A stretch of DNA of 64,000 nt from Oscillospiraceae bacterium (GTDB taxonomy: Bacteria; Bacillota; Clostridia; Oscillospirales; Oscillospiraceae), in contig JAGAQA010000031.1 in assembly GCA_017622995.1 (NCBI GenBank), forward strand, positions 42,055-106,054, given 5' to 3'. Shown here piece by piece: positions 37,105-61,312 of the stretch. Position 1 is the stretch's first letter. Every line of letters begins with the position of its first letter. The notes beneath the pieces were generated by a model. That model was not told the origin of the DNA and did no database searches. It was given only the letters and a program-made list of their open reading frames with translations. The position numbers and the translations under genes were made by a program.

Positions 37105-37800
37105 ATGGCTGTGTCTGTTTTGATTGTAGAGGACGACCGCAATATTGCGGAGCTTTTGCAGATGTATCTGGAAAAAGAGGGCTATGCCGTTACCATTGCC
37201 GGAGACGGAGGCCAGGGTCTTGCGAAATACCGGGCCATCAAGCCGGACCTGGTGCTGCTGGATGTGATGATGCCGGTCATGGACGGCTGGGCGGTCTGCC
37301 GGGCCATCCGGGCCGAGAGTCAGACCCCCATCATCATGCTCACCGCCAAGGGCGAGACCGACGACAAGGTTTCCGGCCTGAAGAACGGCGCCGATGACTA
37401 CATCACCAAGCCCTTTGAAATGAAAGAGGTGCTGGCCCGGATTGAGGCCGTTCTGCGCCGCAGCACCGGAGCCGCAGCGGAAAAGAAAGCCCGGCGCCTG
37501 GTGTTTGACAAGCTGGTCATCGATATGGATGCCTTTGAACTGACCGTAGACGGAAAAAAGGTGGATACGCCCCCCAAGGAGATGGAGCTGCTGTACTATC
37601 TGGCCTCCTCACCCAATCGGGTGTACACCCGCAATCAGCTGCTGGACGAGGTCTGGGGCTTTGATTATTTCGGTGATTCCCGGACGGTGGATGTTCACGT
37701 CAAGCGCCTGCGGGAAAAGCTGGAGGGCGTCAGCCCCAACTGGAATCTGAAGACGGTTTGGGGCGTGGGGTATAAGTTCGAGGTGCTGCAGGGCACTTGA
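37105..37800 (+). CDS. OmpR-family response regulator
   Basis: A 231-residue two-component regulator. The receiver domain (1-~118) has the acidic pocket VEDD, the phospho-acceptor Asp in LVLLDVMMPVMDG, the conserved Thr (MLTAKG) and Lys (ITKPF). A winged-helix DNA-binding domain follows (residues ~133-228, ending VKTVWGVGYKFE-like). The partner kinase is at 38225; the two are unusually separated by 424 bases that hold a toxin-antitoxin-like locus. A TATAAT at 37035-37040 marks the probable promoter, and GGAGAGG the ribosome site. Confidence 0.95.
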   Translation: MAVSVLIVEDDRNIAELLQMYLEKEGYAVTIAGDGGQGLAKYRAIKPDLVLLDVMMPVMDGWAVCRAIRAESQTPIIMLTAKGETDDKVSGLKNGADDYITKPFEMKEVLARIEAVLRRSTGAAAEKKARRLVFDKLVIDMDAFELTVDGKKVDTPPKEMELLYYLASSPNRVYTRNQLLDEVWGFDYFGDSRTVDVHVKRLREKLEGVSPNWNLKTVWGVGYKFEVLQGT

Positions 37801-37824
37801 CTTCTCCCCGGGTTGTGGTATAAT
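37797..37824 (+). promoter_or_regulatory. Promoter of the putative antisense RNA
   Basis: TTGACT, 16 bases, TATAAT. The -35 box overlaps the stop codon of the response regulator gene. Predicted transcript start near 37831. Confidence 0.75.
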
Positions 37825-37830
37825 GAACAT

Positions 37831-37861
37831 GAAAAGAGCACTGCCGATAAGCGGTTCGCTC
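37831..37861 (-). terminator. Probable terminator of the small-peptide mRNA
   Basis: On the minus strand GAGC...CCG, 5-base loop, CGG...GCTC followed by TTTTC. It lies at the start of the antisense gene, so the two transcripts overlap over nearly the whole antisense RNA. Confidence 0.45.
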
Positions 37862-37926
37862 AAGTTTGTTGGTCTAATGCAAACGCTTAGAAACCGTCAC
37901 TTGGCCGAGTGGCGGTTTCTGCTTTT
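37831..37926 (+). ncRNA. Putative type I antitoxin RNA
   Basis: About 96 bases from the promoter at 37797 to an intrinsic terminator: stem AGAAACCGTCACT/AGTGGCGGTTTCT (one G-U pair) at 37889-37920, then GCTTTTT. The RNA is fully complementary to the 3' part of the opposite transcript, including the last eight codons of the 27-codon ORF. Size, position and terminator are like RatA and RNAII antitoxins. No expression evidence is available. Confidence 0.6.
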
Positions 37927-37980
37927 TACAGTGATTGTAATGGTATAGTAACCAATATGTACAGTCAAAGTAATGGGCAT
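37897..37980 (-). CDS. 27-residue hydrophobic peptide, putative type I toxin
   Basis: The peptide reads MPITLTVHIGYYTITITV followed by the basic tail KSRNRHSAK. A 16-residue stretch of beta-branched hydrophobic residues could enter a membrane. The ATG is preceded by GAGAGGGGGTGAAGC, one of the strongest ribosome sites in the window. Its promoter is near consensus, its transcript would begin with a stable hairpin, and an antisense RNA gene overlaps its 3' end. All this fits type I toxin genes such as txpA or fst, though the peptide resembles neither closely. It lies between a response regulator and its kinase. Confidence 0.6.
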   Translation of the reverse strand: MPITLTVHIGYYTITITVKSRNRHSAK

Positions 37981-38005
37981 ATGCTTCACCCCCTCTCAGG
38001 AGTGT

Positions 38006-38056
38006 AGCCAACCGCCTATCCGTTATGGCAATGCTCTTCCCAGCCCCAAATGGGGC
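38006..38056 (-). promoter_or_regulatory. Structured 5' leader of the small-peptide mRNA
   Basis: The predicted 5' end forms GCCCC, AAAT-type loop, GGGGC (38043-38056), a terminal stabilising hairpin. Just downstream, the RNA sequence AAGAGCATTGCC...GGCGGTTGGCT (38006-38038, minus strand) is the inverted counterpart of plus-strand AAGAGCACTGCCGATAAGCGGTTCGCT (37834-37860). In the mRNA the two therefore lie at the 5' and 3' ends and can pair, a long-range closure known to keep type I toxin mRNAs untranslated. Confidence 0.5.
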
Positions 38057-38063
38057 CTCGTTC

Positions 38064-38092
38064 ATTCTATCAACGAACGGGAAAAAAGTCAA
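38064..38092 (-). promoter_or_regulatory. Promoter of the small-peptide mRNA
   Basis: On the minus strand TTGACT, exactly 17 bases, TAGAAT. Predicted start near 38057, giving an mRNA of about 225 bases. Confidence 0.75.
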
Positions 38093-38095
38093 GAA

Positions 38096-38131
38096 ACCGC
38101 GGTCTGCCTGAAGATTGGCAGGCCGCGGTTT
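38096..38131 (+). terminator. Terminator insulating the kinase gene
   Basis: Stem AACCGCGGTCTGCC with near-complement GGCAGGCCGCGGTT around an 8-base loop, followed by TTTTGCG. It would stop plus-strand transcripts coming from the regulator gene before the kinase promoter. Confidence 0.7.
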
Positions 38132-38161
38132 TGCGAAGTTGTAAACTTTTTGTGCGTTTCA

Positions 38162-38189
38162 TTGAAAACCGGAGAAACTGTGATATAAT
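38162..38189 (+). promoter_or_regulatory. Promoter of the histidine kinase operon
   Basis: TTGAAA, 16 bases, TATAAT, about 30 bases before the start codon at 38225 with its GAAAAGAGGTG site. Confidence 0.75.
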
Positions 38190-38224
38190 TCTACCGTAAT
38201 TCAAAGAAAAGAGGTGCCTGGAAC

Positions 38225-61011: not shown

Positions 61012-61312
61012 AACAATTTCACACCGCTTCCAAATGTGTTGAATCAGAAGAGTAGGTTCCCGATTCCCTCATCAGAGAGCTGCCGGAAGGTGCAAGGCAG
61101 TTGTGAGACCCGATCCGAAAATCCCTGAGGAGCAGCCTGCTGAAAGGAAACAAGTAAGCCAGGACGTAGGGCATACGTTATCGTGCCGCGCGTTTAACCG
61201 GTAAGGGCGACGTGACTAAGGGGCCGTTTTAGCGGCAAATTGAGTGGTACCGCGGAGTTTGTATATGCACAGCTTCGTCTCAAGGTTTGAGACGAAGCTG
61301 TTATTTTTTTCA
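61012..61312 (+). promoter_or_regulatory. T-box riboswitch with transcription terminator
   Basis: Stem I carries the GAAGAGTA (AGTA) and AGAGAG elements and a GGTGCA terminal-loop motif; the T-box core TGAGTGGTACCGCGG is at 61241-61255, and the 3' end is a 14-bp terminator CAGCTTCGTCTCAA/TTGAGACGAAGCTG with a long T tract (61270-61310). In the specifier region the sequence is CCGAAAATCCC; by analogy with known stem I loops (GAA, one base, codon) the specifier would be ATC, isoleucine, but AAT and TCC are neighbouring options. Binding of uncharged tRNA lets the dehydrogenase and transporter genes be transcribed. Confidence 0.93.

Follow-up and report, generated by a model that had tools for sequence, protein, structure and literature searches.

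The 27-residue peptide gene lying between a response-regulator gene and a histidine-kinase gene in the window (the whole 64,000-nucleotide stretch of Oscillospiraceae DNA analysed here) very probably forms part of a type I toxin-antitoxin module, in which a peptide of predicted β-hairpin type takes the place of a membrane helix as the toxin. At the level of sequence and RNA folding prediction, the locus combines a selected small ORF (<60 residues), an antisense gene and an occluded ribosome site, as expected of type I systems at the RNA level. A preliminary description of this DNA had already proposed such a module, and the main sequence tests support it: the reading frame is kept, with an excess of third-position changes, both promoters are retained, the two ends of the mRNA coevolve, a hairpin covers the Shine-Dalgarno (SD) region, copies form tandem arrays, and sister loci with the same RNA scaffold carry a recognised class of type I toxin.

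The features of the locus are listed in Table 1. The ORF, both convergent promoters, the predicted ~96-nt RNA with its intrinsic terminator opposite the 3' end of the ORF, and the two complementary arms through which the mRNA ends can pair had all been named in the preliminary description, and all are present in the sequence. The -35 element of the antisense promoter shares bases with the stop codon of the response-regulator gene that precedes it, and if translation began at an in-frame GTG at 37989, the 27-codon ORF would gain three residues. Five promoter-like sites and six terminator-like sites were counted in 661 bp, versus means of 0.6 and 0.8, respectively, in 50 shuffles; no intrinsic terminator for the minus-strand toxin mRNA was found in the 661 bp scanned. 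The histidine-kinase gene has its own promoter-like site (TTGAAA-16-TATAAT, 38162-38189) inside the segment that separates it from the response-regulator gene. Elsewhere in the window, a T-box leader is found at 61030-61285 on the plus strand (Rfam RF00230, 118 bits).

Table 1. Features of the candidate toxin-antitoxin locus and its flanks (positions in the window; RNAs, hairpins and transcription starts are predicted).
Feature	Position	Strand	Details
Response-regulator gene	37105-37800	+	flanks the module segment upstream
Antisense (antitoxin) promoter, TTGACT-16-TATAAT	37797..37824	+	TTGACT 37797-37802, TATAAT 37819-37824
Segment between response-regulator and histidine-kinase genes	37801..38224		absent from most relatives read, in which the two genes adjoin
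Predicted ~96-nt antisense RNA (antitoxin)	37831..37926	+	antisense to the final nine codons and to the 3' UTR
3' arm of toxin mRNA	37834..37860	-	same DNA on the plus strand gives the 5' hairpin of the antisense RNA
Antitoxin intrinsic terminator	37888..37926	+	hairpin 37888-37921, 15 pairs, then CTTTTT
ORF for the 27-residue peptide MPITLTVHIGYYTITITVKSRNRHSAK	37897-37980	-	ATG 37980-37978, TGA 37899-37897; predicted amphipathic β-hairpin at residues 3-18
Shine-Dalgarno hairpin	37985..38006	-	GGGGGUG locked; GNRA-like loops common in relatives
5' arm of toxin mRNA	38006..38038	-	pairs with the 3' arm
5'-terminal hairpin of toxin mRNA, GGCCCC-AUUU-GGGGCU	38042..38057	-	sequence and predicted fold
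Toxin promoter, TTGACT-17-TAGAAT	38064..38092	-	TTGACT 38092-38087, TAGAAT 38069-38064; predicted start near 38057
Histidine-kinase gene	from 38225	+	flanks the module segment on the other side

The translated and nucleotide searches suggested in the preliminary description recovered homologous copies, and the module is recurrent. The source genome (G000, 2.55 Mb) holds one full copy, its six other matches extending over only 14-19 bases, and a DNA match at E <= 0.001 was obtained in 19 of 136 genus genomes, this one included. The ORF is intact in 21 of the 26 aligned copies found by DNA similarity, two of which come from phage records, and the 18 distinct ORFs found in this way carry 15, 9 and 28 extra alleles at the first, second and third positions of codons 3-19. 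A peptide search located 144 encoding places in species-representative genomes, 80 of which were kept, and five places in viral contigs. Two sets were used below: 96 distinct copies selected by codons 1-8 alone, and a larger set of 113 copies that resulted from adding diverged forms and comprises 90 peptide strings when upstream in-frame starts are counted in. Some of the copies collected lie in tandem. For the 84 coding sequences that remain when 12 copies with no clean, distinct 27-codon coding sequence are removed from the 96, pN/pS is 0.29 at codons 13-19, which lie outside the retrieval pattern, 0.75 at the turn codons 10-12, and 0.08 at codons 2-9, a figure affected, and inflated, by the retrieval pattern. 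Judged by these allele counts and ratios, the reading frame of the peptide is under purifying selection. Homologues in which the hairpins were conserved and the frame lost had been named beforehand as the pattern that would speak against a peptide gene; the homologues gave the opposite result, the frame being kept.

Within the order, 24 of 394 genomes (the source genome included), from 15 of 168 genera, carry the family, as do three of 238 other genomes in a sample of the phylum. A search of the class gave matches at E <= 0.01 in six of 390 genomes besides our own; the reading of these covered L154, L155, L156 and L158, with L157 and L159 left out, and L155, L156 and L158 were dropped as relatives, L154 alone resembling a truncated one. 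One locus from the order search (L147) reads as chance and another (L146) is doubtful. Promoters and arms are readable by eye in some out-of-class loci; an antitoxin model (R1, 36 nt, trained on 41 β-type copies only) gave no match in five such loci. As far as these searches extend, the module is recurrent in Oscillospirales gut bacteria and thinly distributed elsewhere. A complete module is present in Vescimonas fastidiosa MM35, which is of human source, and Pseudoflavonifractor sp. MSJ-30 also carries the module.

The genomic settings of the copies are scattered: clustering of the 160 ORFs that flank 85 loci gave 131 clusters. Among the five viral contigs, three have flanks in common, and one of these flanks looks to us, by eye, like a BRO-type antirepressor. 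At the site of the present locus, the best 30 response-regulator loci (own included) comprise 25 in which the response-regulator and kinase genes adjoin (23 identified by script; L178 and L189 by eye), two with a module or remnant (our own and L186) and three with other DNA. Judged by coordinates, a module or remnant occurs at this site in six genomes: G000, G103 and G116 with an intact ORF, G089 with a frameshifted one, and G118 and G121 with remnants. In L164 and L169 an ORF that looks integrase-like by eye comes directly after the corresponding response-regulator gene, the 3' end of which may thus serve as an integration site. An empty site in 25 of the 29 relatives read, outer inverted repeats, and copies both dispersed and in tandem are also what a MITE-like repeat element would leave, with the inverted ends serving in transposition and the ORF incidental. 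This reading seems highly improbable: the frame is under selection, promoters and coevolving RNA arms are located within the inverted ends, and the presence of the module or its remnants at one site in six genomes implies that it was inherited there.

The copies selected by codons 1-8 encode 74 distinct peptides with 20 or more residues (one 10-residue peptide was dropped). In these, positions 9, 12, 14 and 16 are hydrophobic in all 74 and position 18 in 73, whereas the alternate positions 13, 15 and 17 are hydrophobic in one, none and three, respectively. Together with positions 3, 5 and 7, these residues form the pattern predicted for a β-hairpin with a two-residue turn at positions 10-11, and variation is concentrated at that turn. 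At the free positions, 73 of the 74 fit the hydrophobic face of a β-hairpin, the exception being L109, which has an altered C-terminus (a frameshift, by eye). The same hydrophobic pattern is found in 88/88 peptides of a wider set, a count that is partly built in because the relaxed finder demands part of the pattern together with a terminator; over these 88 peptides the hydrophobic moment is 0.71 for β and 0.21 for α. The first strand is two residues shorter in one subfamily (MRITLHIGRFTVTIIVK...), with the register kept. The best 15-residue GRAVY value is 1.09 for the peptide of this locus and at most 1.94 in the family, versus 2.2-3.3 in nine sister-locus peptides. Type I toxins are usually, not universally, small hydrophobic proteins with a potential membrane domain and a charged C-terminus, according to an excerpt of one article (PMC6563280); the present peptide has the charged C-terminus and lacks the membrane helix.

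The basic NRH tail pointed out in the preliminary description is present, but it is encoded by the antitoxin terminator hairpin and must be read differently. The hairpin and U tract of the terminator lie opposite the codons for VKSRNRHSAK, and the NRHSAK tail appears to be the overlapping terminator read as protein, the V-K-S codons corresponding to its U tract. The tail is not universal, since the peptides of L145, L137 and L009 stop right after the hairpin.

The statement that the peptide matches no nameable toxin family stands, as no family of known function matches above cut-off. At E <= 10 two peptides had no Pfam match, and at E <= 1 none of 22 members matched PF16935; PHROGs and NCBIfam gave nothing for two peptides at E <= 10, PADLOC and PDB no relative at E <= 1, and Rfam nothing in the region at gathering score, with chance-level matches at E up to 5. 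Single weak matches to a retroviral SH3 model (E 0.0064) and to MpPF26 (E 0.022) were judged to be due to chance. Among the titles and abstract openings listed in searches of an open-access library, none names such a peptide family, and searches for peptide strings retrieved no paper there. The peptide might still be a divergent YrzI protein (PF09501/TIGR02413, a family of small proteins in Bacillus) rather than represent a new family, given that four of 22 members match YrzI models over about residues 6-17, with best E-values of 0.027 (Pfam) and 0.024 (NCBIfam). We regard this as improbable. The similarity is weak and spans 12-16 residues of the hairpin core in models of 45-46 positions; the best NCBIfam score is 14.8 bits against a cut-off of 47.05, and the Pfam scores listed, 10.6 and 8.4, compare with a cut-off of 23, so that they fall far short in each case; and the Pfam YrzI model finds nothing in 21 genus genomes, our own included. 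The yrzI operon is described, in an excerpt of PMC10100781, as encoding multiple peptides of unknown function. The peptide family, predicted to be of β-hairpin class, is apparently undescribed; the module that carries it is of a known kind, though its shared scaffold is unusual.

The predicted mRNA (38058-37820) folds so that its two ends pair, with an energy of -96.4 kcal/mol (z = -6.8) that none of 200 shuffles equalled; the predicted antisense RNA (37831-37927) has a fold energy of -37.4 (z = -4.1). The 5'-3' pairing of the mRNA, for which a covariation analysis had been proposed, proved to coevolve: over 104 copies (113 minus one with a short flank and eight near-duplicates), the energy between the 5' arm and the 3' arm is -51.7 kcal/mol within copies and -41.0 kcal/mol across copies, a difference reached in 0 of 20,000 permutations. 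When 70 copies were folded, 67 had more than 40% of the 5' arm paired with the 3' UTR. All but one of the 104 copies (103) have a local hairpin over the SD region, and its halves coevolve as well (self -9.68, cross -8.95, 0 of 20,000 permutations, with no-duplex energies handled by clipping); GAAA is the most frequent loop (48), followed by GGAA (14). The ribosome site, previously described as exceptionally strong, is thus present, but sits inside a local hairpin and calls for another interpretation. The halves of the first hairpin of the antisense RNA also coevolve (self -11.6, cross -10.0, 105 copies, 0 of 20,000), although the antitoxin 5' alignment used for the model yielded no consensus pair with RNAalifold. 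All of these permutation tests ignore the shared ancestry of the copies. The 5'-terminal GCCCC/GGGGC hairpin is present, but it is not clearly conserved: such hairpins occur in 77 of 81 copies versus 67 expected, a crude test that does not separate them from shuffles.

Two structural variants were noted. A palindromic insert (roughly 60-90 nt by estimate, with ends GGTGTGATTGCCAC... and ...GCGCGACGCACCGC) is found in the toxin 5' arm in both peptide classes (L013/L048, L016, L028/L045, L221, L230 and L233), where it would disrupt the end-to-end pairing. Another variant of the scaffold has GGAGGT in the 3' arm (L039, L040, L133, L144 and L241), so that the antisense RNA would contain ACCTCC and could in addition pair directly with the ribosome site of the toxin message.

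From these features we infer transcription, silencing route, activation step, fold, target and toxicity as follows. An mRNA starting near 38057 on the minus strand would encode the 27-residue peptide and would be inert, with a hairpin over its ribosome site and its 5' arm paired to its own 3' end. The ~96-nt antisense RNA, starting at about 37831, would bind the last nine codons and the 3' UTR, and this would most likely lead to destruction by RNase III, as for txpA/RatA. Once the antisense RNA is exhausted, through loss of the locus or stress, the 5' arm would open, a ribosome would load and the peptide would be made. Its core (residues 3-18) would form a β-hairpin with one hydrophobic and one Thr/His face, followed by Lys/Arg residues, and the peptide would probably act at the membrane, slowing or killing the cell. 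The 5' arm may be where ribosomes land, a place that pairing of the two ends would keep closed, as has been proposed for other systems; we infer this step with the least assurance of all. The activation step is weakened by the finding that removal of the 3' arm in silico leaves the SD shut (unpaired 0.06 in the full and 0.04 in the truncated mRNA, 70 copies sampled).

This arrangement has partial counterparts among known systems. In hok/Sok, the full-length mRNA is inert and is shut by long-distance pairing of its 5' and 3' ends. The same is described for aapA3 in an excerpt of one paper (PMC6733600). The predicted 5'-3' pairing of the present mRNA resembles that of hok/Sok and of aapA/IsoA of Helicobacter, whereas the bacteria and the toxins differ, the antisense RNA here covers the 3' half, and loss of the 3' arm by itself leaves the SD unexposed in silico. 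The par/fst locus of Enterococcus (RNAI/RNAII) has two convergent promoters and a shared terminator region, with direct repeats at the 5' ends of the RNAs, and Fst is a membrane helix. The present locus likewise has a convergent promoter pair and a shared terminator region, but its repeats are inverted rather than direct, so that its two RNAs have like, not complementary, 5' ends. The closest likeness is with txpA/RatA and the Hol_Tox (PF16935) modules, in which a convergent antisense RNA also overlaps the 3' end of the toxin message; the Hol_Tox modules of this genus moreover have the same promoter/5'-arm/3'-arm scaffold and, as here, tandem arrays. Hol_Tox-like peptides differ in being hydrophobic helices with a lysine tail, in contrast to the β pattern of the present peptide, and the one compared has no profile link to it (hhalign probability 0.6%).

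Four loci (L025, L026, L027 and L035) match only the antitoxin promoter and arm and encode quite different, TxpA/Hol_Tox-like peptides; three of these, when tested, gave weak Hol_Tox matches (E 0.0076-0.069, below the Pfam cut-off). Pfam Hol_Tox was found in 17 of 136 genus genomes, in 11 above cut-off, and the source genome G000 has none at E <= 0.01. At E <= 1e-3, the R1 model matches 16 of 27 Hol_Tox-found loci (L212 being left out of 28; two of the 16, L204 and L211, overlap on one contig), as well as L025, L026, L027 and L035, and 11 of the 27 have no match at that threshold. As a control, R1 run over the whole source genome gave one strong match, the module locus itself (E 5.6e-7), the next being at 0.033. 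Coevolution of the two mRNA ends is likewise seen among the Hol_Tox-found loci: for 26 of the 28 (L212 and L200 being omitted) the pairing energy is -60.2 within and -52.4 across loci (0 of 20,000). A scan of the genus for the scaffold returned 55 places in 26 of 136 genomes. Nineteen further places, classed by eye (L239 omitted), comprise 14 with an intact membrane-helix peptide and one with a broken one, two of β type (L221, and L235, which is cut by a contig end) and two remnants. The R1 matches, the coevolution and the peptides at scaffold places together show, at sequence level, one RNA scaffold bearing two unrelated peptide classes; since elsewhere in the genus this scaffold carries TxpA/Hol_Tox-like membrane-helix peptides, the toxin would have been exchanged upon it. 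Four antitoxin-arm matches in a row on one strand, spaced by ~350-410 bp, form tandem arrays at L026, L027 and L203. One scaffold copy (L238) has a peptide, MSITLSDLISILGLIFTALGFGFRLGLRAGKPRNKK, that is not clearly Hol_Tox and possibly represents a further toxin class.

The two sides of the module are not retained equally. Of the 96 copies selected on codons 1-8 alone, 94 have an antisense promoter that agrees with the consensus at 10 or more of its 12 bases, the exceptions being L049, for which the finder picked no good site, and L123, in which the contig stops 136 nt downstream; the terminator pattern is present in 92 of the 96. In an overlapping set, the antisense promoter is found at the same threshold in 111 of 112 copies versus 1 of 112 in shuffles; the toxin promoter reaches 9 or more of 12 consensus bases in 81 copies of this set versus three in shuffles, a lower bound because inserts shift some promoters beyond the range searched. 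Antitoxin promoter and arm persist without the toxin N-terminus in L020 (a whole antitoxin), L024, the damaged L032 and L021/L240. This asymmetry in promoters and remnants, few as the remnants are, would be the trace expected of a toxin and its antidote.

The peptide might instead be non-toxic, a small regulatory, membrane or signalling peptide under a cis antisense RNA, with the scaffold borrowed for tight control. Two of its properties would suit such a role: it has no membrane helix, and it belongs to no family of known function above cut-off. This reading nonetheless appears unlikely in view of the antitoxin promoter kept in nearly all copies, the antitoxin-side remnants, the tandem arrays, the scattered contexts, the copies on viral contigs and the use of the same scaffold by toxin-like peptides.

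Under the preferred toxin-antitoxin reading, the present family would be the first of type I built on amphipathic β-hairpins, on a scaffold interchangeable with that of TxpA/Hol_Tox-like helical toxins, and in the Oscillospirales the scaffold would be what is inherited and the toxin its swappable cargo; this view as a whole we hold slightly more readily than its denial. A β-hairpin class, if true, would mean a new mode of action to search for among type I toxins. Such ORFs are easily overlooked, as in Vescimonas fastidiosa, where the gene is absent from the listing (the PLSDB gene table being incomplete). The occurrence of two unrelated peptide classes on one scaffold would make it possible to ask whether selection retains the RNA control or the toxin.
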